DNA from: a virus
Virus record (IMG/VR): IMGVR_UViG_3300023180_000386
Coordinates: 1-24,403 of that record
Length of the DNA: 24,403 nt
Reading direction: 5' to 3' (one strand)
A model generated the notes under the pieces. The model saw nothing but the letters and a program-made list of their open reading frames with translations, ran no database searches and was not told the DNA's origin. This document shows positions 3,641 to 24,359 of this stretch, one piece after another; position 1 is the first letter of the stretch; the number at the start of each line of letters is the position of its first letter. A program made the position numbers and the translations under genes.

Positions 3641-4222
3641 CTATAATGTTGTTGTTATATTCCTATCGATGATTCTGTACACATCGTAGTTATCAAATAT
3701 TGAGTAATCTCCTGTATTTGATTCAGCATCTTTAAGCTCAACTAAAGCCAACATTTCATCTTTCTCTTGGAAACCGTGGAGTTCTACAGATCCCACAGCT
3801 CGATCTTGGAAGACTCTTGCTGCCTTAACAGTTACGTAGCGTCTTAATGCTTCTGGAGTGTCTTCAAAAGGAAGAAGAACAACCATATCTACTTCAAGAG
3901 TTTCAGTGATCGTGAATGTATGATTAGTTTTGTTATAAAGTTTCTTTCCTCTTTGGACATAATCTGATTGTGAATACCCGTGTAAATCTACACGTAGGCA
4001 GTCATTAGGAAGGACGATCTCGTTAGAATTGTTTGGAACGACCTTCATTTTAATTTCTGTATTGAAGTGCCAGCCTTGTGACTGAACATCACGGCTGATT
4101 GATTCGAGAATAGTTTCAGCCATCTCAGCGTCTACCAAGCCGGAATTCAAAGAGTTGACTGGCGACTCACCAATACTGCTTAGTATTATGTTTACTGCTT
4201 CTAGTTTTGTAGTTGGAGTCAT
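3641..4222 (-). CDS. Tail tubular protein A (gatekeeper/adaptor), gp11-like
   Basis: 193 aa against 196 aa for T7 gp11, the dodecameric adaptor between portal and nozzle. The N-terminus (TKLEAVNIILSSIGESPVNSL, about residues 5-25) is the family signature of phage tail tubular A proteins: a helical segment followed by SIGE-P-V. A second conserved block, QSQGWHFNTE, lies at about residues 48-57. The gene lies downstream of the capsid gene and its terminator-like hairpin, matching T7, where gene 11 follows gene 10 and the T-phi terminator. Synteny and sequence agree well. Confidence 0.95.
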   Translation of the reverse strand: MTPTTKLEAVNIILSSIGESPVNSLNSGLVDAEMAETILESISRDVQSQGWHFNTEIKMKVVPNNSNEIVLPNDCLRVDLHGYSQSDYVQRGKKLYNKTNHTFTITETLEVDMVVLLPFEDTPEALRRYVTVKAARVFQDRAVGSVELHGFQEKDEMLALVELKDAESNTGDYSIFDNYDVYRIIDRNITTTL

Positions 4223-8316: not shown

Positions 8317-9270
8317 TTAGTCCCAGCCCCAATTATCGCCAACCATTCCAGCTGCGTTGTAATCGGTCACTGTTCCTTCAAAGAAGTTTTTAAATGAGTC
8401 ACCATTGATGATCCAATCTAACCAGGACAAAGGATTATCTTTAACTTTCCAGTTAGATTTAAGACCAAGTTGAATCAATCTACGATCTGCTATGTATCGA
8501 ATATATTGTTTTATTTCTTCTTTGGTGATGCCTTCAATTCCGCCCATAGCAAACGCATGCTCAATAACTTTATCCTCCAGTGCAATGCCATCACGGAACA
8601 TTTGATAGATATCTTTCTTGAAATCATCAGTAACGATTTTATTATGCTCATTACAAAACTCCCTAAATAGTTGAACCATCCCTTCACAATGTGTTGATTC
8701 ATCACGAATAGACCATTCAACAATTTCACACATACCTTTCATCTTTCCGAATCGTTGGTAATTGAGAAGCATTGCAAATGCAGAGAAAAGACTTACACCT
8801 TCGTTAAAGACAGAACGTGCAATCGCTAAAGCAAGAGATGAGTGAGAATGGGCATCACAATTACCCATGAATTCCACTTTGTTTGCTAGCTGCGGGATAT
8901 TTAAAAATGTGCTGTATTCCTTCTCATCGAAACCTAAGGTGTCCACAAGAAGCGAGTAAGCTCTTTGGTGTACAAACTCACGATTAGCGAAACTCGTGAG
9001 CATGGAACGTATTTCATTATTCTTAAACTTCTGGATGTAATACTCTAGGTAGTTAGTACCTACAGCTACATCCGTCTGTGTGAATAGACGTAGAATCTGA
9101 GTAATGTGATTCTTTTCTTGTTTACTTAATACATTACCCTTCCACTGGTTTACATCATCCTGGAGTTTTGCCTCCCATTCTCCCCAGTGGATTTTTTCAT
9201 GATCAATGGATCTCTCGATAGCCCAAGGATAAACAAAAGGTTTATAAACTTTATTTGGTTCTAGAAGCAT
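8317..9270 (-). CDS. nrdB: Ribonucleotide reductase class I beta subunit
   Basis: 317 aa from ATG 9270 (GGAG seven bases upstream, within the preceding gene); a TTG one codon earlier is less likely. The beta subunit houses the di-metal centre and radical that start ribonucleotide reduction by the alpha subunit. All six expected metal ligands are visible with E. coli NrdB spacing: D67, E98, H101, E157, E191 and H194. Y105 (pattern E-x-x-H-x-x-x-Y) matches the radical tyrosine Y122, so a tyrosyl-radical class Ia-type enzyme is expected. The C-terminal GDNWGWD tail resembles the peptide that docks to alpha. Five small genes separate it from nrdA. It overlaps the upstream 56-aa ORF by 20 bases. 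Confidence 0.95.
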   Translation of the reverse strand: MLLEPNKVYKPFVYPWAIERSIDHEKIHWGEWEAKLQDDVNQWKGNVLSKQEKNHITQILRLFTQTDVAVGTNYLEYYIQKFKNNEIRSMLTSFANREFVHQRAYSLLVDTLGFDEKEYSTFLNIPQLANKVEFMGNCDAHSHSSLALAIARSVFNEGVSLFSAFAMLLNYQRFGKMKGMCEIVEWSIRDESTHCEGMVQLFREFCNEHNKIVTDDFKKDIYQMFRDGIALEDKVIEHAFAMGGIEGITKEEIKQYIRYIADRRLIQLGLKSNWKVKDNPLSWLDWIINGDSFKNFFEGTVTDYNAAGMVGDNWGWD

Positions 9271-9421
9271 CAATCATCTCCATGATGGCTTTACCGTTTT
9301 CTACGGCAGTCGCGACGTTAGTACCTTTTGTTAAAATTGCTGCTGTTAAAATAATTTGACCCAGCTTATCTATATCAATGCTTGGTGTTGTTGGTGTCGG
9401 TGTCTTCTTCGTTGCCGCCAT
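9251..9421 (-). CDS. Unknown 56-aa protein
   Basis: Start chosen at ATG 9421, which has AAGGAG upstream; a longer frame to 9481 lacks such a site. The sequence opens with a threonine/proline tract (MAATKKTPTPTTPSIDID), followed by a moderately hydrophobic stretch (LGQIILTAAILTKGTNVATAV) that is marginal as a membrane span. It is nested in a chain of overlaps: 47 bases with the upstream 110-aa gene and 20 bases with nrdB. That suggests translational coupling with nrdB. I recognise no family. Confidence 0.68.
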   Translation of the reverse strand: MAATKKTPTPTTPSIDIDKLGQIILTAAILTKGTNVATAVENGKAIMEMIDASRTK

Positions 9422-9707
9422 TTTCCTGCTCCTTAAATTTATCTTCTTTGTTATCAATCCATCCGTAATGAGATCCGTCATTACCGTTCTGGCCTATGAT
9501 GTCCATACGTTCTTCATTCCACTCTTCTCCATTTAGCTCTGCTCCTTCTTTGAGCTTCGAGTAATAGTCTTGAAGAGCATTTGCTTTAACTGCTTCTGTA
9601 AGTGCTTTGTATTTCTGCTCGATCTCGATTCGTTTCCTCTTCTCAGTCTCATATTTCTTAACCCAAGAGATGTAAGAGTTTTTCTGTAACTCACGCCACG
9701 AGTCCAC
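9375..9707 (-). CDS. Unknown 110-aa charged, coiled-coil-like protein
   Basis: It starts with GTG (9707-9705), preceded by AGAGG about eight bases upstream. The first codon sits against the stop of the upstream gene. Residues about 5-55 are a charged helix (WVKKYETEKRKRIEIEQKYK) likely to form a coiled coil. The tail from residue 60 is very acidic and asparagine-rich. No membrane span, cysteine cluster or catalytic motif is visible. It belongs to the cluster of small genes between nrdA and nrdB; its role is unknown. Confidence 0.7.
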   Translation of the reverse strand: MDSWRELQKNSYISWVKKYETEKRKRIEIEQKYKALTEAVKANALQDYYSKLKEGAELNGEEWNEERMDIIGQNGNDGSHYGWIDNKEDKFKEQENGGNEEDTDTNNTKH

Positions 9708-10375: not shown

Positions 10376-12106
10376 CTATCCGTGACACGCTAAACATTCT
10401 TCAGCATCCTTAAGGGCATGCCTCTCTACCTTCATTCCAACCTTATCTACAGTCTTACCTGAGTTAGTTCGTAGGTAATACAAACCCTTGAGCTTTGAAT
10501 AGAAAGCTCGTAAGTGAACTGAGTTGACGTAAGACTTGTGAGTACCAGCTGGGAAGAAAAGGTTTACACTTTGACCTTGGCATACGTAGTGCTGCCTATC
10601 GGCTGCATGATCTACGATCCAGTGTTGGTCAATTTCGAATGCAGTTTTAAATACATCCTTTTCCCATTCCGAAAGGAAATCTAGGTGTTGTACAGACCCA
10701 TCTGCATTTAAGATCGAGTCCCAGTTTTCTTTTGTGTTTTGCTCATAGGACTCAAGTAAAGATTCAAGGAATCGATTCTTGATGAGATGAGCTCCTGCCC
10801 TCGTGCGATGAGTAAAGCAATTAGACTTAAGGGGCTCAATACTAGGAGAACAGCCACAAATAATGCTGCTATTAGCATTAGGAGCAATGGCAAGAAGGTG
10901 ACTGTTGCGATGGCCTGTACCCACCATGTCAGGGGCTTCACCCCTTTCGGCGGCAAGTAGTTTTGTAGATTCAATAGCTTCATTTTTAATTTCTTTAAAT
11001 ATTTTATTATTAATAGATTTAGCAAGTACTGACTCCCAAGGCACCATTTCTTTCTGTAGGTAACCATGGAAACCCATAGCACCTAGCCCTAGTGCACGTT
11101 CTTGCTCAGCTGAGAATCTAGCCTTCTGAATTTCATCAGGTGCGTGATCGATGAAGAATTGCAGTACGTTATCTAAAAGACGTACGAGATCACGTACTAG
11201 TTCTGTATCCTTCCATTCATCATATTTCTCGATGTTAATCGAAGAAAGGCAGCACACCGCCGTACGTTCCTCGTTTGTAGGTAAGTGGATTTCGTTACAG
11301 AGGTTTGAACCTTTGATCTCCAAACCTTTTTCACGTTGGCATTGCGGAAGGTTTCTATTAGCCTCATCGATAAAGTTAAGATAAGGTGACCCAGTTCTAA
11401 AACGAGTCTCCAACAGTCTTTGCCAAAGATCACGAGCTTTGACTGTGTCCTCAACTTTTCCTGTGTGAGGGCATACAAGGTTCCAATCGGTATCATGTGA
11501 AACAGCCTCCATAAAATCATCGGTGATATTCACCGCATTAAATAAATTAAAACACTTACGATTAGCGTCTCCTCCTGTAGGTAGCTTGAAGTTCATGAAC
11601 TCAACGATGTCTGGATGACTTACGTTTATATAAGCTGCATAACTTCCTTTACGTGTTTTACCTTGTTTGTAAGCAGTCATTTGCGAATCAACCACTTTAA
11701 GGAAAGGAATAGCACCTGGTGATTTATCTGATACACCACGTACGCGGCTCCAATGACCACCTACCCCACCACCTTTAACAGACAACCAAGAGACCTCATT
11801 GTTGTGATTGATAAGGCCATCTAAGGTGTCGTCTACATAAGTTAAGAAACAGCTAATAGGTAGACCTTTAGGTTTCTCATCTTTAAGAGGTGCGTTTGAT
11901 AAGACTGGTGATGCAAACATGAACCAACGTTTAGAAGCATAATCATATATACGTTGTGCAAACTTCTTATCGCCATATGAATAGGCTTGAGCTGCTCTTG
12001 CAAATGCGTCTTGGGGATCTTCGCCTGGACGGCAGTAGTATTCAGTTAATAAGGCTAGTGCTTGGGGTGTGAAACCTTCGTTTCGAGAATAATCAACTTT
12101 GATCAT
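10376..12106 (-). CDS. nrdA: Ribonucleotide reductase class I alpha subunit
   Basis: 576 aa from ATG 12106, which has AGGAGG three bases upstream; a TTG five codons earlier is not preferred. It catalyses reduction of ribonucleotides to deoxyribonucleotides for phage replication. Visible key residues: C86 in PISCFL, N268-C270-E272 in NLCNEIHLP (radical cysteine, base catalysts), C285 in CCLSSIN, Y543/Y544 in LYYLRT (radical transfer), and a C-terminal CLAC pair at 571/574. It is much shorter than E. coli NrdA (761 aa) and begins at the catalytic core, so the N-terminal ATP-cone that gives dATP shut-off is absent. It overlaps the upstream DUF3310 gene by 14 bases. Confidence 0.96.
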   Translation of the reverse strand: MIKVDYSRNEGFTPQALALLTEYYCRPGEDPQDAFARAAQAYSYGDKKFAQRIYDYASKRWFMFASPVLSNAPLKDEKPKGLPISCFLTYVDDTLDGLINHNNEVSWLSVKGGGVGGHWSRVRGVSDKSPGAIPFLKVVDSQMTAYKQGKTRKGSYAAYINVSHPDIVEFMNFKLPTGGDANRKCFNLFNAVNITDDFMEAVSHDTDWNLVCPHTGKVEDTVKARDLWQRLLETRFRTGSPYLNFIDEANRNLPQCQREKGLEIKGSNLCNEIHLPTNEERTAVCCLSSINIEKYDEWKDTELVRDLVRLLDNVLQFFIDHAPDEIQKARFSAEQERALGLGAMGFHGYLQKEMVPWESVLAKSINNKIFKEIKNEAIESTKLLAAERGEAPDMVGTGHRNSHLLAIAPNANSSIICGCSPSIEPLKSNCFTHRTRAGAHLIKNRFLESLLESYEQNTKENWDSILNADGSVQHLDFLSEWEKDVFKTAFEIDQHWIVDHAADRQHYVCQGQSVNLFFPAGTHKSYVNSVHLRAFYSKLKGLYYLRTNSGKTVDKVGMKVERHALKDAEECLACHG

Positions 12107-12299
12107 ATTCCTCCTCTTCAATTAATTTTGTTAAATACCACTGAGCTTTCTTGAGATCCTCAAGACCATTCTTGAACTTGTAGCGAGAGACATACTTAAT
12201 GATGTTTCCCTCTAGGTAGTCCATGTTCTGATCCAAAATGAAATCAATCACTTCAATGTTTCCTTGTTGGTAATGTGTTGGGTTTATTGCATCTGCCAT
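12093..12299 (-). CDS. DUF3310-type small protein
   Basis: 68 aa, starting MADAINPTHYQQGNIEVIDFI. The combination NP-x-HY-x-x-G...E-x-ID, then GNIIKYVSRYKFKNGLEDLKKA and WYLTKLIEE, is the signature of the DUF3310 family. These proteins are often called nucleotide kinase-like in phage genomes, though the biochemical role is unsettled. GGAGAGG lies about seven bases before the ATG. It overlaps the exonuclease gene by 16 bases and nrdA by 14, fitting the nucleotide-metabolism operon. Confidence 0.85.
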   Translation of the reverse strand: MADAINPTHYQQGNIEVIDFILDQNMDYLEGNIIKYVSRYKFKNGLEDLKKAQWYLTKLIEEEEYDQS

Positions 12300-18725: not shown

Positions 18726-21161
18726 TTAGCTAAAGAAAAACTGGCTCTTTAGTACTTCTTTGAGATCCAGGTCACCTTTCTCAGGGACAGAAGGAACATC
18801 ATCAACAACCTCTTCAGCTTCTTTCTTAAAATCAGAAAGCACATCATTAGCTGTATACATTTCATAAAAAGCTTCACGAATTTTCTCTGCAAGGAATTCA
18901 GTGTCTGCAGCATGTACGCCGTAGCTATCGTGAATCATTGCAAAATCAGTAATACCTTCAGCAACACATTTATTTATTGTGAGTGTCATTGCAGCAGCAT
19001 CCATGCTGTGAACGAAGTTAGGGCTAGAGCCTTGTACAGCACGGCGTCTATCGAGCTTAGTAAAATCAAGCTCATTCACTGTTGGCTTAATCAGTGTGTT
19101 ATCAATATATGTTGTTATTCTTCGTTCTTTCATTGATGGGTATTGCTGCTGAACAACAAAACCTGAAGGCGACGTCCAGATCAGTGGGAGGTTTTCTTCA
19201 GAAACCTTAGCCGCCACTTCCTGGATAAAGTTCATAGCATTCCTTGCGGAAACTACGGTGTCACCAATCGCATCCCAAACAAGTGTTGTAAGGAAATGAG
19301 TTGGTGGAAATAAATCTCGAGGCCAAGGATTAGGATGGCCTCCTTCTAGCTTCTCGACCACATAGTCTTCTATGTATTGACGACAAGAATATTTTTGACC
19401 GCCATACGGTAGAACCATGACAGGTCGTTTAGTTGTTTTTCTAGTTACTCCAAAGTCCAGCCATTCCTGAGCTAGGACATCCCCTTTCTTAGCCATCTCT
19501 TCTAATTTACTAATCACTTTGTCAGCTACCTCTTGATAAATATCTTGTGGTTCTGGGGTTGGTAATAAGTTAGTGGCTTTACCAGCTACTGTATCTCTGA
19601 GTTGAGCTGAGAAATGCTGCAAGCCATTGTTAGATCCATCGAGACCGATAGGTAAAGAAGACATGTAGCCCATGCCCTCCTCCATGAATCCTGCATACTC
19701 AAAACAAAATGCTAAGAACATCCAAGGTTCATCAGCTTCTTGCCACCAGGTATGGTTTAAAGGATCTCCAGCTGAGGCCAGGATCTGCTCTTCATTGTTG
19801 TAGACCCATAGCTCACGAGCATCCAACGATGTTTTGTCATATCCAAATGAATTAGCACCATGAATACAGAGCCATTTAAGAGCTTCAGGAGACTCAATAG
19901 GTTTGCCATCAGCAAACGTTAATAGAGCTTTGGAATACCCAGTTCCCTGAGGTGATAAAAAGCTCACTGTGACGTATTTACGACCTCTGAAGTCACTTTG
20001 ATATGGGTAATAGAAAGCTTCATATTGAGAAAATCTTTCAGCCATCTGTAATGTACGAATGAACTGGATTCTCTTTGAGCTATTTCGCGTATTTGCTTGG
20101 TGAACCTGAGCAGCTTTTGATTTCCACTGCTTGAGAGCTTTCTGCTGAGCTTCATCCATTTCAGACTTCTCCATCCCTGGGAATGGGCTCGGAGGAATCG
20201 GTAAAGCATCCTTTGGTGGAATGCCCTTCCAATCCATACCAGACTCCCAGCAGGATCTCATGACATCTAAGACTCTGTGGTTTACAGCCCAGCGAGTCTT
20301 CTGCAGCGCATTGATAGCTGCATACTCCTCAGGCATATCGTGGTTACGCATCTCTTCTAGATACTTACGGTTGTAAGTCTTGATCATAGGAAGGGGGCGC
20401 ACAAACGCATGGTGATATCCACCACCAGTTGGTTCAGTCCAGTCTTTTGGTGGGATGACACAAGGCAGATAGAAAGGTGATAGTAACTCGCCGCTCTTGT
20501 TAACCTTCTGGATCCAATCAATGGTCTTCTCAGTAGCTATGATGAAAGTCTTACGTTTCTTCCGACCATAGGCGTGAGTTTTAACCTGGACGATTCCAGT
20601 GGTCTGAACCAGGATATCGATGAGCTTGCAGCCAAGATGCATTTTCTCCTGATGAGACCATGGGACATAGTCAATCAGAGCCTTACGATTCATCGTATGG
20701 ATCAGAGCGTATCGTCTGTAGTGTCTGTTGGAGGTTCTCTTGGTGACCTCATTGACGATGGTCTTGAACCAGTGCTTTTCTTTGTCCTCGAAGAGACCAA
20801 ATTTGAACTCATCTTCGACGGCATTTGCGATTGTCATTGCGACATTCGTGAGTGGTAATCTTTTGGAAACCCCGTCCACCACCATCTTCAGGGTTAGGTA
20901 TGAAACTTTCTCAGGATCTACTGAGTTGAGAATAGTTGCAGCTGTTTGGATTTTCCCCGCTCTCCCAGCGAAGGCATGCTGCAAATAGTCGATGATTCCG
21001 TCACTCAGTGCATTGACTGAATGCTTCATCAGGTTGATGCCATAGAGGGTTGTGCTCTCCTGCTTACGCTCCTGAGCTACTCCCACTTCCTTGTAATAAC
21101 GAGACACCGAAGTGTCCTTCATTTCCTTTTCTAACTTACGTTGTTCCTCTACTAAATTCAT
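18726..21161 (-). CDS. Phage single-subunit RNA polymerase, gp1-like
   Basis: 811 aa (T7 RNAP is 883 aa). It transcribes the middle and late phage genes. Catalytic features match T7: D508 in GLDGSNNG (T7 D537), R574/K578/Y586 in VTRKTTKRPVMVLPYGG (T7 K631, Y639), and D745 in IHDSYG (T7 D812). The C-terminal LKSQFFFS corresponds to the T7 foot FAFA. The N-terminal domain is shorter. The start codon lacks a canonical ribosome site and directly follows two TGTGGCGTAAA repeats of the proposed attachment region. A 5-bp stem with UUCG loop lies 45 bases into the gene (21116-21103). Its promoter specificity cannot be read by eye. Confidence 0.97.
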   Translation of the reverse strand: MNLVEEQRKLEKEMKDTSVSRYYKEVGVAQERKQESTTLYGINLMKHSVNALSDGIIDYLQHAFAGRAGKIQTAATILNSVDPEKVSYLTLKMVVDGVSKRLPLTNVAMTIANAVEDEFKFGLFEDKEKHWFKTIVNEVTKRTSNRHYRRYALIHTMNRKALIDYVPWSHQEKMHLGCKLIDILVQTTGIVQVKTHAYGRKKRKTFIIATEKTIDWIQKVNKSGELLSPFYLPCVIPPKDWTEPTGGGYHHAFVRPLPMIKTYNRKYLEEMRNHDMPEEYAAINALQKTRWAVNHRVLDVMRSCWESGMDWKGIPPKDALPIPPSPFPGMEKSEMDEAQQKALKQWKSKAAQVHQANTRNSSKRIQFIRTLQMAERFSQYEAFYYPYQSDFRGRKYVTVSFLSPQGTGYSKALLTFADGKPIESPEALKWLCIHGANSFGYDKTSLDARELWVYNNEEQILASAGDPLNHTWWQEADEPWMFLAFCFEYAGFMEEGMGYMSSLPIGLDGSNNGLQHFSAQLRDTVAGKATNLLPTPEPQDIYQEVADKVISKLEEMAKKGDVLAQEWLDFGVTRKTTKRPVMVLPYGGQKYSCRQYIEDYVVEKLEGGHPNPWPRDLFPPTHFLTTLVWDAIGDTVVSARNAMNFIQEVAAKVSEENLPLIWTSPSGFVVQQQYPSMKERRITTYIDNTLIKPTVNELDFTKLDRRRAVQGSSPNFVHSMDAAAMTLTINKCVAEGITDFAMIHDSYGVHAADTEFLAEKIREAFYEMYTANDVLSDFKKEAEEVVDDVPSVPEKGDLDLKEVLKSQFFFS

Positions 21162-21162
21162 A

Positions 21163-21185
21163 TTTACGCCACAATTTACGCCACA
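21163..21185 (-). repeat. Two direct TGTGGCGTAAA repeats (candidate integrase arm sites)
   Basis: TGTGGCGTAAA occurs twice on the minus strand at 21185-21175 and 21173-21163, spaced 12 bases apart. It ends one base before the RNA polymerase start codon. The 9-base core TGTGGCGTA recurs only in this 290-base region as far as I can see. Direct repeats near one helical turn apart are typical of tyrosine-integrase arm-type or excisionase sites. Confidence 0.75.
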
Positions 21186-21242
21186 AAGGGCAATTTAAAA
21201 GAATCCCTTAAAATACGAATAAACGGACATCCGCTTCAAAGT

Positions 21243-21255
21243 CTTATGAAATAAG
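21243..21255. promoter_or_regulatory. Short perfect inverted repeat upstream of RNA polymerase gene
   Basis: CTTAT-GAA-ATAAG is a 13-base inverted repeat about 82 bases before the polymerase start. On the minus strand a TTGAAG, 18 bases, TATTTT arrangement follows it and could be a weak sigma-70 promoter. Both could serve polymerase expression from the prophage or free genome, but the match quality is low. Confidence 0.25.
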
Positions 21256-21286
21256 GCTAAATTCAATACTTTAGGGGAGTTGATAC

Positions 21287-21295
21287 TGTGGCGTA
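21287..21295 (+). repeat. Inverted copy of the TGTGGCGTA repeat
   Basis: The same nine bases read on the plus strand here, opposite in orientation to the other five copies. It lies eight bases from a 23-base hairpin and 33 bases from the 3' end of the tRNA. A single inverted arm site near the core is consistent with asymmetric P' arm organisation. Confidence 0.65.
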
Positions 21296-21302
21296 TCCAT
21301 TG

Positions 21303-21325
21303 CAATGGGATTTTAAGACCCATTG
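21303..21325 (-). repeat. Hairpin repeating the tRNA anticodon-loop heptamer
   Basis: On the minus strand, CAATGGG-TCTTAAAAT-CCCATTG (21325-21303) is a perfect seven-pair inverted repeat two bases beyond the tRNA CCA end. Its central CTTAAAA is identical to the seven-base anticodon loop of the tRNA, 67 bases away. No T-run follows, so it is unlikely to be a terminator. Confidence 0.7.
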
Positions 21326-21327
21326 TT

Positions 21328-21416
21328 TGGTGCGAGAGGCGGGACTCGAACCCGCAAGCCATTGAAACGGCGCGAGATTTTAAGTCTCGTGTGTATACCA
21401 ATTCCACCACTCTCGC
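21328..21416 (-). tRNA. tRNA-Leu (anticodon TAA)
   Basis: A complete 89-base class II tRNA folds by eye. The acceptor GCGAGAG (21416-21410) pairs with CTCTCGC (21338-21332), followed by discriminator A and encoded CCA. The D stem is GTG/CAC, and the anticodon stem CGAGA/TCTCG carries loop CTTAAAA. The long variable arm GCC...GGC is the leucine hallmark, and the T arm is GCGGG-TTCGAGT-CCCGC. The anticodon TAA (21382-21380) reads UUA/UUG. It lies in the integrase-polymerase intergenic region, is oriented with them, and is probably co-transcribed. It is likely derived from the host integration target. Confidence 0.95.
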
Positions 21417-21420
21417 TGAA

Positions 21421-21452
21421 TACGCCACAGTTTACGCCACAATTACGCCACA
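21421..21452 (-). repeat. Three direct TGTGGCGTA repeats overlapping the integrase 3' end
   Basis: Copies lie at 21452-21444, 21441-21433 and 21429-21421 on the minus strand, spaced 11 and 12 bases. The first encodes the last integrase codons (Val-Ala-stop). The last ends four bases before the tRNA 5' end. Together with the copies on the polymerase side they frame the proposed attP core. Confidence 0.75.
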
Positions 21453-22456
21453 GTCACGCTACCGCTCGATAGAACGGATATTGCGTCAGTCAAATTACTA
21501 GGCGCGAGCTTCGCGTATCTCATAGTAACTTGCAGTGAGCTGTGATTCATAAGCTTCGACACTGTTTGGATCGAAACTCCGCGCTGCACCAATCGTGATG
21601 CAAATGTGTGTCTAAGAGTATGTATGGTTACTGCATGATCATCGATCTGATTGATTTGCAGAGCACGTACAAACTCATAGCGGATCTTTTCATAAGTAAG
21701 TCCTGGAAAGATCTTGCCGTCTCCGAATACCTCCAACCTTTTAGAGATAATCTGAGATACACGTGGCGTTAAAGGAACAACGTGATCCTTATGGTTCTTT
21801 GTATCGTAAAAAGTGACTTGCTTAGGTGTACAAGCATCTCCAGTGAGCTTGAGTGTTTCACCTATACGAGCCCCAGTATCTAATTGGAAGATAACGAGGT
21901 CAGCAATATCATCCCTATCGAGCTGTCGCAGTGTTTTCACAATAGCTTCTTCCTCAGGCAGACTGAGAAAACGCTCTTTGGTGACAGATTCTTTCTGACG
22001 TGGAATGTATGGGAGCTTGTCTAAACGCTCACACTTCCAGGCATATTTAAGAATCTTAGATAAAGCAGCCAATTTACGATTAATGGTGCCGTTTGAATTC
22101 CCTACTTCGTTACGCAGGTGGTTCACAAGATCTTGCACTCTTTCCGTATTAATTACGGATAAGGAACAATCTTTACCAAAAAAATTCATGACCATGTTTG
22201 CATTCTTCATGGCTGAATCTTCAGCTTTGGTACCACGCCACTCAGCGTCATAGGTTTTCTGTAAAGCTGTCTCAAATGTCCACGAGTTAACGCTTGGTTT
22301 ACGTGGCAGATCTGAGCCTGCAGCAAGAGCTAATTTAGTCTCAGCTTCCCACTGAACAGCTTCAGCATAGGTTGGCAATGTCTTACGACGGCGTTTGCCA
22401 GTTTTAGAATCGGTGACATAGGCTTCGAAGCCAGCACCTCTTGGTTTTACACTCAT
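21443..22456 (-). CDS. int: Tyrosine recombinase (phage integrase)
   Basis: 337 aa. It performs site-specific recombination between attP and a host tRNA. The N-terminal segment (about 1-50, GFEAYVTDSKTGKRRRKTLPTY) looks like the arm-binding beta domain. Residues about 60-150 form the helical core-binding domain. The catalytic domain shows R197 (TGARIGE), a Lys near NHKDHVVPLT, H279-x-x-R282 (HTLRHTFASRL), H305 (LMNHSS) and nucleophile Y314 (MRYAKL). Its start overlaps the winged-helix gene stop by four bases (ATGA), and AGGAG lies inside that gene. The 3' end runs into the attP repeats. It appears intact. Confidence 0.96.
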   Translation of the reverse strand: MSVKPRGAGFEAYVTDSKTGKRRRKTLPTYAEAVQWEAETKLALAAGSDLPRKPSVNSWTFETALQKTYDAEWRGTKAEDSAMKNANMVMNFFGKDCSLSVINTERVQDLVNHLRNEVGNSNGTINRKLAALSKILKYAWKCERLDKLPYIPRQKESVTKERFLSLPEEEAIVKTLRQLDRDDIADLVIFQLDTGARIGETLKLTGDACTPKQVTFYDTKNHKDHVVPLTPRVSQIISKRLEVFGDGKIFPGLTYEKIRYEFVRALQINQIDDHAVTIHTLRHTFASRLVQRGVSIQTVSKLMNHSSLQVTMRYAKLAPSNLTDAISVLSSGSVTVA

Positions 22457-22782
22457 AACATCTCCTGTATTTTTCGCATTACGCTTTCCCCCTTTTGGGT
22501 CAGTCTGATTGTCTTACGAACCCGATACATCGGATCCTCTTTAGTTGTGACTAAATTTAAGCCACCCATAGATTTTACCCCAGCTTTTGTAAGCTTTGAG
22601 ACATTTCGTGATGCGGCTGCTCCAGATATATTCAACTGGTCTGCTATATCCTTAATAGAGATGCCTCTCTCGTCGTCCTGGTGCTTGTAAATCAGGAGTA
22701 AAGTCATGATGGTTTGAATTGGCATTTCTGCGTCAAAAGATCGCAAATAATCCAAAGCGTCAAACAATTTATTTTTGAGCAT
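22453..22782 (-). CDS. Winged-helix (MarR-like) DNA-binding regulator
   Basis: 109 aa. DIADQLNISGAAASRNVSKLTKAG (about residues 46-69) is a helix-turn-helix with recognition helix. TTKEDPMYRVRKTIRLTQKG (about 79-98) is the beta wing, followed by a final helix. The layout resembles MarR-type winged helices. It could be a lysogeny repressor or a recombination directionality factor, since it is translationally coupled to the integrase. The ATG has no clear ribosome site and overlaps a 50-aa ORF by 14 bases, so translation may depend on that upstream ORF. A 12-base palindrome sits one base upstream of the start codon. Confidence 0.82.
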   Translation of the reverse strand: MLKNKLFDALDYLRSFDAEMPIQTIMTLLLIYKHQDDERGISIKDIADQLNISGAAASRNVSKLTKAGVKSMGGLNLVTTKEDPMYRVRKTIRLTQKGESVMRKIQEML

Positions 22783-22921
22783 GATTTCTAGAAATTACGA
22801 TAAGAAGTCTAAATAGATGAATGTACGTGTCTACGTAATTATCTCTTAAGACTCGTTCAATGAAACAAGTCGACCCAGTGCTATTTTTCTGAACGACTAA
22901 CTCTATATTACAACATCTCAT
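22769..22921 (-). CDS. Unknown 50-aa ORF upstream of the winged-helix regulator
   Basis: It begins at ATG 22921 with GGAGGAG immediately upstream (about five bases spacing) and stops at TAA 22771-22769, inside the regulator gene. The product opens MRCCNIELVVQKNSTGST and has a hydrophobic C-terminal part (YIHLFRLLIVISRN) that might associate with the membrane. Because the regulator lacks its own ribosome site, this ORF may act as a coupling leader peptide. Codon and composition evidence is weak for so short a frame; the ribosome site is the main support. Confidence 0.5.
   Translation of the reverse strand: MRCCNIELVVQKNSTGSTCFIERVLRDNYVDTYIHLFRLLIVISRNHAQK
22784..22795. promoter_or_regulatory. 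Perfect palindrome at the regulator start, possible operator
   Basis: ATTTCTAGAAAT is a 12-base perfect palindrome beginning two bases before the regulator ATG. A DNA-binding dimer could use it for autoregulation. Chance occurrence in AT-rich sequence is not excluded. Confidence 0.3.
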
Positions 22922-23132
22922 AGCTCCTCCGACACTGTAATTTACTCTCTCTCCTCTAATTGCTACGATAAAGTAACTATTTTAGAAATGCAATTAAATG
23001 TGGGCATGTATTTATCGCAATTTGTTATGTGTTTATAAGAAATACACATAAGATTTATGTTCATTTTCGAAAACTTCCGCCTACACCATGATAGTAACCT
23101 CCCCCTGGATCGTGGCCTGCGTTGGGCATATG
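22922..23132 (-). promoter_or_regulatory. AT-rich control region before the regulator-integrase-polymerase genes
   Basis: About 210 bases without a convincing gene, directly downstream of a strong terminator. Transcription of the regulator, integrase, tRNA and RNA polymerase must therefore start here or read through. Candidate host promoter elements on the minus strand include TATAAA at 23038-23033 and the TTGCGA (17 bases) TTAATT arrangement; none is a strong consensus match. It contains the inverted repeats described separately. Confidence 0.5.
23025..23060. promoter_or_regulatory. Clustered inverted repeats TTATGTGT/ACACATAA, candidate operator
   Basis: TTATGTGT (23025-23032) and ACACATAA (23044-23051) form an eight-base inverted repeat with an 11-base spacer containing TATAA. 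The second arm is reused in a tighter palindrome ACATAA-GAT-TTATGT (23046-23060). Three related half-sites around a possible -10 element look like a repressor operator. Confidence 0.5.
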
Positions 23133-23179
23133 AAAAAATACGGGCAGGGAAATAGAGGAGAAACGAAAACCTGCCCGTA
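23133..23179 (-). terminator. Strong rho-independent terminator closing the early block
   Basis: On the minus strand, TACGGGCAGG (23179-23170) pairs perfectly with CCTGCCCGTA (23148-23139) around a 21-base loop. Six T residues follow. It lies nine bases after the 33-aa ORF and separates the early small genes from the regulator-integrase-polymerase block. Confidence 0.9.
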
Positions 23180-23187
23180 AACGCTAG

Positions 23188-23289
23188 TTATTTTTTACGT
23201 ATGTTTTCCCATAGTATATTGAGTAGAAAAACTACGAGATATATACAAACTATAACTAGCTGCCAATCAATGCTCGAGGTAGCTGACAT
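23188..23289 (-). CDS. 33-aa single-span membrane miniprotein
   Basis: ATG 23289 is preceded by AAGGAGGT with five bases spacing, an essentially full complement of the 16S anti-Shine-Dalgarno sequence. The product starts MSATSSIDWQ, has a strongly hydrophobic stretch LVIVCIYLVVFLLNILW (about residues 11-27), and ends in ENIRKK and TAA 23190-23188. This is the layout of a small inner-membrane peptide with a cytoplasmic basic end. It overlaps the GP88-like gene by 23 bases in another frame, and a strong terminator follows at once. A holin-like, toxic or superinfection-exclusion role is possible; none is shown. Confidence 0.72.
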   Translation of the reverse strand: MSATSSIDWQLVIVCIYLVVFLLNILWENIRKK

Positions 23290-23923
23290 TCGCTACCTCC
23301 TTATCCCAGCAGGCACGGCAAGTGCCGCACTGGTTGCCTTGTTTTGGCGCAGGACATAAGTGGCCTGCAGCATTGAGAGGTGTGGTAACAACACTTGATG
23401 TGTTGTAGTTGGTGTTTGTTAAGCATACGTCTATTTTACCAGACGAAATTCTGATAGTTAGGTTATCTGGGATAATAGATGATTGTTGATATTGCTTAAC
23501 AAGAATACGTTCTTCGGTTGGTAGCCAGAACTGCACGTCAGGTAAGTTGCGTGCAACTTGGCAGATGTTGTCAAGATGATTGAGATCTTGAATGTCACCA
23601 ACATCGTGCCAACGGAAGTGTGTGTCTTTGGTCTTGGCTATGAGATAAGTCATAGCACTGACCCACTGTGGATGGTCGAGAGACAGATAACGTTTCATAA
23701 GTGCTGTTTGCACATTCTTGAAACGGTAACGACCTTTCATACCGTAACAGTTGTAACAAGGTGTACCAGGTATTTTGGCAAGCTTGCTACCTGTTTTGCA
23801 TTTGGATGCGGGTATCGAATAGCCATGCCCAGGCATTTTGCCGGGCTTGGATAAAGTATGGCAGATAGACTCCGCCATAGCTTTGTTAGTGATAGTTTGA
23901 TTACGTATTATTAAATCCTGCAT
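23267..23923 (-). CDS. GP88-like cysteine-rich phage protein
   Basis: 218 aa with AGGAG eight bases before the ATG. Features recall the phage/actinophage GP88 family: an N-terminal cysteine block ending PCYNCYGMKGRYRF (C56, C59), a central FRWHDVGDIQDLNHLDNI (about residues 103-120), QFWLPTEE (131-138), and a C-terminal cysteine cluster with C190, C199, C202 and C205 (CGTCRACW). The clustered cysteines suggest a metal or iron-sulfur site. The biochemical function of the family is unknown. It lies among early small genes and its last codons overlap the 33-aa membrane ORF. Confidence 0.75.
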   Translation of the reverse strand: MQDLIIRNQTITNKAMAESICHTLSKPGKMPGHGYSIPASKCKTGSKLAKIPGTPCYNCYGMKGRYRFKNVQTALMKRYLSLDHPQWVSAMTYLIAKTKDTHFRWHDVGDIQDLNHLDNICQVARNLPDVQFWLPTEERILVKQYQQSSIIPDNLTIRISSGKIDVCLTNTNYNTSSVVTTPLNAAGHLCPAPKQGNQCGTCRACWDKEVANVSYLEH

Positions 23924-24193: not shown

Positions 24194-24359
24194 TGTTGCG
24201 CTCCTTAAGTTTGTGATCGATGTCATTGAATATGCAGTGCCAAGTTGAGTCGGCTAGATCTTCTGAGTTGATAGTCATGTAAAGAGCTTGGTCTATACCC
24301 TGCCCCTTGATAGTAAGTACGAAGTTGTCGATTGCGTAATCGTGCGGCATATTAAGCAT
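24183..24359 (-). CDS. Unknown 58-aa early protein
   Basis: It begins at ATG 24359 with GGAGGG six bases upstream and ends at TAA 24185-24183. The product starts MLNMPHDYAIDNFVLTIKGQ and continues with ADSTWHCIFNDIDHKLKE. It looks like a small folded beta/alpha protein, with no membrane segment. It overlaps the genes on both sides by about ten bases, as expected for tightly packed early phage genes. No function can be given. Confidence 0.68.
   Translation of the reverse strand: MLNMPHDYAIDNFVLTIKGQGIDQALYMTINSEDLADSTWHCIFNDIDHKLKERNNDN

Follow-up and report, generated by a model that had tools for sequence, protein, structure and literature searches.

We have analyzed a virus fragment of 24,403 bases from IMG/VR (record IMGVR_UViG_3300023180_000386), termed here the window. 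On its minus strand lie, in this order, genes for a MarR-type regulator and a tyrosine integrase, a tRNA-Leu with anticodon UAA, and the gene for a T7-type single-subunit RNA polymerase (RNAP). We conclude that this segment most likely comprises the lysogeny module and phage attachment site (attP) of a temperate T7-like phage, probably one that employs tRNA-dependent lysogeny; taking all the parts of this explanation together, we place its probability at about three in four. T7-like phages have long been regarded as strictly lytic. An earlier examination of the same sequence (the original prediction) had placed attP at the tRNA, and proposed that integration separates the integrase from RNAP and thereby acts as a topological switch between lysis and lysogeny.

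Host tRNA-Leu is cut and replaced in integrated relatives

Bacterial genomes were scanned with an RNAP alignment, giving 65 loci, and an integrase alignment was then searched against 25 of the genomes that contain them. In eight prophages (L031, L032, L043, L046, L048, L049, L058 and L086) a tRNA-Leu is found in two pieces: its 5′ part, as far as the anticodon loop, opens the RNAP end, and its 3′ part is located at the integrase end. When the flanks were rejoined by script a perfect tRNA-Leu (UAA or UAG) resulted in all eight cases. The phage and the host tRNA have a short core in common, with a contiguous match of about 7–15 bp, and the host tRNA is not rebuilt on integration. Each of the eight also has a separate, complete phage tRNA-Leu that is 74–90% identical to the host gene and matches it in isotype and anticodon. 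The rejoined host tRNA of R. palustris matches nothing but its own two halves, the tRNA of the phage and a single tRNA-Leu whose anticodon differs; in the six genomes checked all remaining tRNA-Leu matches carry other anticodons. Direct repeats at both prophage ends confirm the attachment sites in several loci.

The window has the parallel components, i.e. a phage tyrosine integrase, a tRNA-Leu(UAA) and a candidate core of UAA type. We propose that its tRNA would serve as the replacement for a disrupted host tRNA.

A candidate attachment core beyond the phage tRNA

The features of the segment are collected in Table 1. A second copy of the anticodon loop is found in the intergenic DNA 11 nt past the end of the tRNA, and the overlap CTTAAAA of the proposed core occupies 21311–21317. 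An equal copy is present +11 to +24 nt past the tRNA in L008, L023, L027, L028 and L038. The chance of such a copy within 150 nt is 0.008–0.04 per contig, although L008 and L023, being closely similar, are not independent. The core of the R. palustris prophage (GGGTCTTAAAATCCC) is identical to the center of that in the window. Comparison of these sequences indicates that the attachment core is probably the second loop copy and not the tRNA itself, displacing the crossover from the position first assigned to it. With crossover at the second copy, the tRNA and the integrase would remain together.

Table 1. Features of the candidate lysogeny segment, with coordinates in the window.
Feature	Position	Strand	Basis or remark
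Control region, non-coding, upstream of marR	22783–23266	−	Contains terminator hairpin 23130–23185
MarR-type winged-helix regulator, 109 aa	22453–22782	−	Pfam HTH_24 and MarR_2 above cut-offs; PHROG 9665 transcriptional regulator, 1.4e-23
Tyrosine integrase, 337 aa	21443–22456	−	PF00589, 3.2e-19; PHROG integrase, 1.9e-58
Three direct copies of TGTGGCGTA, integrase side, before tRNA	21444–21452, 21433–21441, 21421–21429 (span 21421–21452)	−	Exact-match count
tRNA-Leu, complete, anticodon UAA	21328–21416	−	ARAGORN; Rfam RF00005, 60.1 bits
Proposed attP core, CAATGGGT-CTTAAAA-TCCCATTG	21303–21325	−	Second anticodon-loop copy inside 7-bp inverted repeat
One inverted copy of TGTGGCGTA, beside core, RNAP side	21287–21295	+	Exact-match count
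Weak hairpin, poor terminator candidate	21205–21245	−	41 nt, −10 kcal/mol, z −1.95
Two direct copies of TGTGGCGTA, touching RNAP start codon	21177–21185, 21165–21173 (span 21165–21185)	−	Exact-match count
T7-type single-subunit RNAP, 811 aa	18726–21161	−	PF00940, 2.2e-104; PHROG 414, 1e-270

Crossover might alternatively occur within the complete phage tRNA-Leu (21378–21384), whose halves would be exchanged with those of the host gene to restore a functional tRNA. Rebuilding does occur in other relatives, namely L053/L099 and L047/L103 (5′ part shared) and L034/L093 (3′ part shared, 60 bp), where L053 is a shortened prophage remnant. Moreover, the attP of cyanophages matches the first half of a tRNA-Leu (PMC8776855). 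However, where cyanophages have a partial tRNA that is completed by recombination, the window has a whole tRNA followed by a separate core that holds the second loop copy inside an inverted repeat, and relatives of that same layout recombine at the second copy. HTVC109P, which shares the 5′ half, has that half alone and no complete tRNA. We therefore regard crossover within the tRNA of the window as improbable. An antisense tRNA such as that of Pseudomonas phage LUZ100 was also considered as the attachment site, and was ruled out because in L031/L092 and L049/L096 this tRNA remains intact at the integrase end.

The sequence TGTGGCGTA occurs as six exact copies within 21165–21452 and nowhere else in the 24.4 kb, which is above chance. 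On both flanks of the core the copies probably correspond to integrase arm-type sites, which they resemble. Similar repeats occur to both sides in relatives too, and a repeat on the RNAP side is present in L028, L038, LUZ100 and Rhizobium phage RHEph21. Since the two copies nearest to RNAP touch its start codon, integrase bound there might repress RNAP and so link competence for integration to silence of the polymerase. Yet arm-type sites would be expected at this location for recombination alone, and both the binding and the repression are putative; we think such a roadblock has little likelihood.

Candidate cores can also be discerned in two isolated phages. In LUZ100 (L002) the sequence CAACAGACTTAAAAGGTCTTG at 3906–3938 (CTTAAAA at 3918) lies just before the mapped terminator T4. 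Taken with the tRNA-Leu(UAA) of this phage, the candidate core leads to the prediction that LUZ100 would employ tRNA-dependent lysogeny, with a host tRNA-Leu(UAA) as its target. RHEph21 (L123) has a tRNA-Leu(UAG) at 1487–1571, antisense near marR and int, a UAG-type core (GTAGATTTAGGTTGTACC) at approximately 2714–2731, and a strong terminator-like hairpin before RNAP. The tRNA-Leu, candidate core and terminator of the two isolates are in matching places. In the marine phage contigs L010–L022 the integrase is followed by a tRNA-Leu(CAA) and then by a CAA-type mimic of the anticodon stem-loop (CGGATTCAAAATCCG), a layout that suggests an equal strategy at tRNA-Leu(CAA).

The regulator and integrase, and the genome that carries them

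The Autographiviridae-type gene set indicates that the window is a fragment of a T7-like bacterial virus. Its proteins include the single-subunit RNAP, T7 SSB, endonuclease I and amidase (by Pfam and PHROG matches), and the overlapping contig L005 has a T7-type terminase gene and continues past the upstream edge of the window across the early region. L005–L007 are 99.2–99.9% identical to the window across the overlap. Among isolated phages none is close, the top RNAP matches being only 36–42% identical to that of the window. At the DNA level the phage collection gave short matches only, mostly in the tRNA. A search for the host by tRNA similarity was uninformative, its top match (84%) being located in the relative phage L027.

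The integrase residues R197, K220, H279, R282, H305 and Y314 are invariant (alignment A2), and the 3′ end of marR overlaps the start of the integrase by 4 bp. The original prediction had the integrase, tRNA and RNAP in order on one strand, with a winged-helix protein and no visible divergent cI-like repressor gene. All of this agrees with our analysis. No cI-like gene was found in the window, nor in L005 upstream to the terminase gene, and the idea of a hidden repressor of this type past the edge of the window was rejected on the basis of L005. The large control region that had been described exists, but it lies upstream of marR and not directly upstream of the integrase, and it holds a strong terminator-like hairpin (−17.4 kcal/mol, z −5.4). 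Two other sequences in or near this region may have a regulatory role. The inverted repeat TTATGTGT-N11-ACACATAA at 23025–23051, upstream of marR, is a possible operator. The sequence TTACTATCANGGNGNAGG, with two minus-strand copies at 23080–23097 and 24299–24316, is a possible phage promoter; it was the sole candidate in a search of the window for phage-promoter motifs, and as many copies were found in 7 of 100 shuffles.

RNAP and integrase lie at opposite ends of the prophages

In 13 loci with flanking host contig (L031, L032, L034, L039, L043, L046, L047, L048, L049, L058, L060, L083 and L086) the integrase is 35–42 kb downstream of RNAP, on one contig and one strand. L035 and L036 are also split, but their contigs end on both sides and may be opened circles. 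In the phage-form contigs L027, L028 and L038 the integrase, tRNA and RNAP are adjacent. Integration in these relatives therefore places RNAP and integrase at opposite ends of the prophage, as had been proposed for the window.

The truncated 5′ half of the host tRNA-Leu points into RNAP from 0.2–2.6 kb upstream in 12 prophages. In L083 (Comamonadaceae) the prophage is in a tRNA-Cys gene (9527–9600) on the strand opposite to RNAP, which is thus divergent from the host tRNA there. From the arrangement of the sequences it appears that integration exchanges the upstream neighborhood of RNAP, which is reconnected and not simply disconnected. The earlier proposal that RNAP becomes detached from its control region is accordingly half of the picture: the region upstream of marR–int is lost to it, but RNAP then finds itself behind half a host tRNA.

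Of 26 regions tested, 15 have a terminator-like hairpin after the core (each p ≤ 0.05 relative to shuffles; LUZ100 and several of the prophages are among them), and 14 of these hairpins have −6.8 kcal/mol or stronger. Integration removes the 3′ end of the host tRNA gene itself, and a replacement stop signal would then be of use. Scanning the stretch between integrase and RNAP in the window gave no convincing terminator (best hairpin −2.9 kcal/mol, p = 0.26) and no sigma-70-like promoter. The claim that no terminator intervenes is therefore sustained for the window, but relatives usually have one in the gap. A sigma-70-like promoter between core and RNAP did not rise above shuffles in 15 of 16 regions, the window among them, and L031 is the exception.

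Possible control of RNAP by integration

We infer that recombination of like kind occurs in the window phage with a host tRNA-Leu(UAA), and that it has consequences for regulation. Integrase would bind the repeated arm-type sites on both flanks of the core, and the 7-bp overlap would recombine with the anticodon loop of the host tRNA. The host gene would be halved, leaving the 5′ half upstream of RNAP and the 3′ half at the end with the integrase, and the phage tRNA would replace it. RNAP would then be at one end of the prophage and marR–int–tRNA at the other. Host transcription in the free genome could reach RNAP only by running on from marR–int–tRNA, while in the prophage that source would be about 40 kb away and RNAP could be transcribed only from the host tRNA promoter. 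Since RNAP has no recognizable host promoter, it is probably gated by the MarR-type regulator together with read-through. In most relatives there is a strong terminator-like hairpin after the core, so insulation by a terminator, and not promoter loss alone, may silence RNAP. The tRNA of the window is on the marR–int strand with no terminator between, and a single transcript may therefore span tRNA, integrase and regulator.

If all of this applied, integration would itself be part of the lysogeny decision. It would swap the source of RNAP transcription from the marR–int operon to the host tRNA-Leu promoter across a terminator gate, survival of the lysogen would be tied to the phage tRNA on the marR–int side, and a single recombination would couple the repressor to the supply of tRNA and to the silence of the polymerase. 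We consider so complete a coupling speculative and rather unlikely.

A number of points weigh against the assignment of the window to tRNA-dependent lysogeny and the control suggested for it. No integrated copy of the window phage was found, nor a host that would show the bacterial attachment site (attB) and the junctions. The nearest relatives, with RNAP 54–56% identical, are in phage form only, and the integrated relatives are distant, with RNAP 33–41% identical. A strong terminator after the core was not found in the window, nor in L008, L043 and L046. The scans for terminators and promoters are crude, the latter being based on an E. coli-like model. In the literature covered on this phage group no measurement of RNAP expression in lysogens was found.

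In its original form the topological switch has integration alone turning RNAP off by cutting its link to the marR–int operon, and excision turning it on. The split in 13 prophages is consistent with this, as are the lack of a recognizable host promoter before RNAP and of a strong terminator inside the integrase–RNAP unit of the window. Against this, RNAP of the prophages lies behind the 5′ half of the host tRNA-Leu on the same strand, and could be transcribed if there were no terminator. The conserved terminators of relatives would limit coupling of integrase and RNAP in the free form too, and the timing of the decision cannot depend upon integration alone. The switch in this form is doubtful.

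Repression by the MarR-type protein is at least as likely. Here the protein would repress RNAP at a phage promoter immediately upstream of the gene, read-through of a terminator after the integrase would set the basal level of RNAP, and the split would follow from the position of attP alone and play no part in regulation. This corresponds to the model published for LUZ100 (PMC10134795). In that model marR and int are cotranscribed from P3, most transcripts stop at the strong terminator T4 after int and few read on, a phage promoter (phi1) precedes RNAP, and the decision is given to the MarR-type protein and terminator read-through. The window has an equal marR–int pair. However, the binding of MarR is described there as hypothetical in LUZ100 too, the DNA before RNAP in the window yielded neither a phage-promoter motif nor an operator, and the model is silent on how RNAP starts from a prophage in which P3 is some 40 kb away. 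We would give this explanation a little less than an even chance.

Relation to known systems

Tyrosine integrase, a short core within a host tRNA, failure to rebuild that tRNA and a cognate phage tRNA, all seen in the T7-like relatives, are features of the tRNA-dependent lysogeny defined in actinobacteriophages, including mycobacteriophages (Fionnbharth, LeBron and Gaia; PMC10865867). In contrast to those phages, the present ones are T7-like podoviruses of mainly Gram-negative hosts, the crossover is in the anticodon loop, attP is directly before the RNAP gene, and the tRNA requirement is putative. In Lo5R7ANS-like T7-like prophages of Sinorhizobium meliloti AK21 and RU11/001 a tRNA-Leu(UAG) is inactivated centrally and replaced by a prophage tRNA-Leu(UAG) (PMC11476347). 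The cutting and replacement are alike, but the accessible part of that account does not include a polymerase–integrase split, a terminator or gene control. Given these precedents, the kind of lysogeny is already known. In the part of the literature covered we found no prior account of its extension across temperate T7-like phages, of attP cores in the window and in LUZ100, or of the placement of RNAP behind a cut tRNA with a terminator between, and we claim these with caution.

LUZ100 resembles the window in its marR–int operon, with RNAP next downstream, and its tRNA-Leu(UAA), the integrase being 38% and RNAP 42% identical (PMC10134795). It has a terminator between marR–int and RNAP where the window has only a weak hairpin. 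It differs also in that its tRNA is antisense between marR and int, and in the available text no attP is reported. The cyanophages P-SSP7 and S-TIP37 likewise have attP downstream of int at tRNA-Leu, and their integration was shown by polymerase chain reaction; yet their attP is the first half of a tRNA only, and no stable lysogeny was found (PMC8776855). In integration-dependent immunity (cited in PMC10865867) integration likewise alters what a regulatory gene connects to. There, however, attP is inside the repressor gene, which is itself restructured, whereas here the core is intergenic and marR (open reading frame 22453–22782), int and RNAP are intact.

Temperate T7-like phages have presented a puzzle, with LUZ100 having the genes yet giving no stable lysogens, and cyanophages integrating without lysogeny. 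Our analysis provides precise candidate attachment cores and a reason for the recurrence of tRNA-Leu beside the integrase. The physical rule, by which a prophage has its integrase at one end and RNAP at the other, behind a cut host tRNA, makes control of a T7-type polymerase in lysogens testable. For one more phage family, the results bear on the question posed in PMC10865867 of how far tRNA-dependent lysogeny reaches beyond actinobacteriophages.

Other genes in the window

Elsewhere in the window the small and large subunits of a phage-encoded ribonucleotide reductase are found at 8320–9273 and 10379–12121 respectively. A gene of the GP88 family (PF17338) is located at 23270–23923, just upstream of the lysogeny control region.

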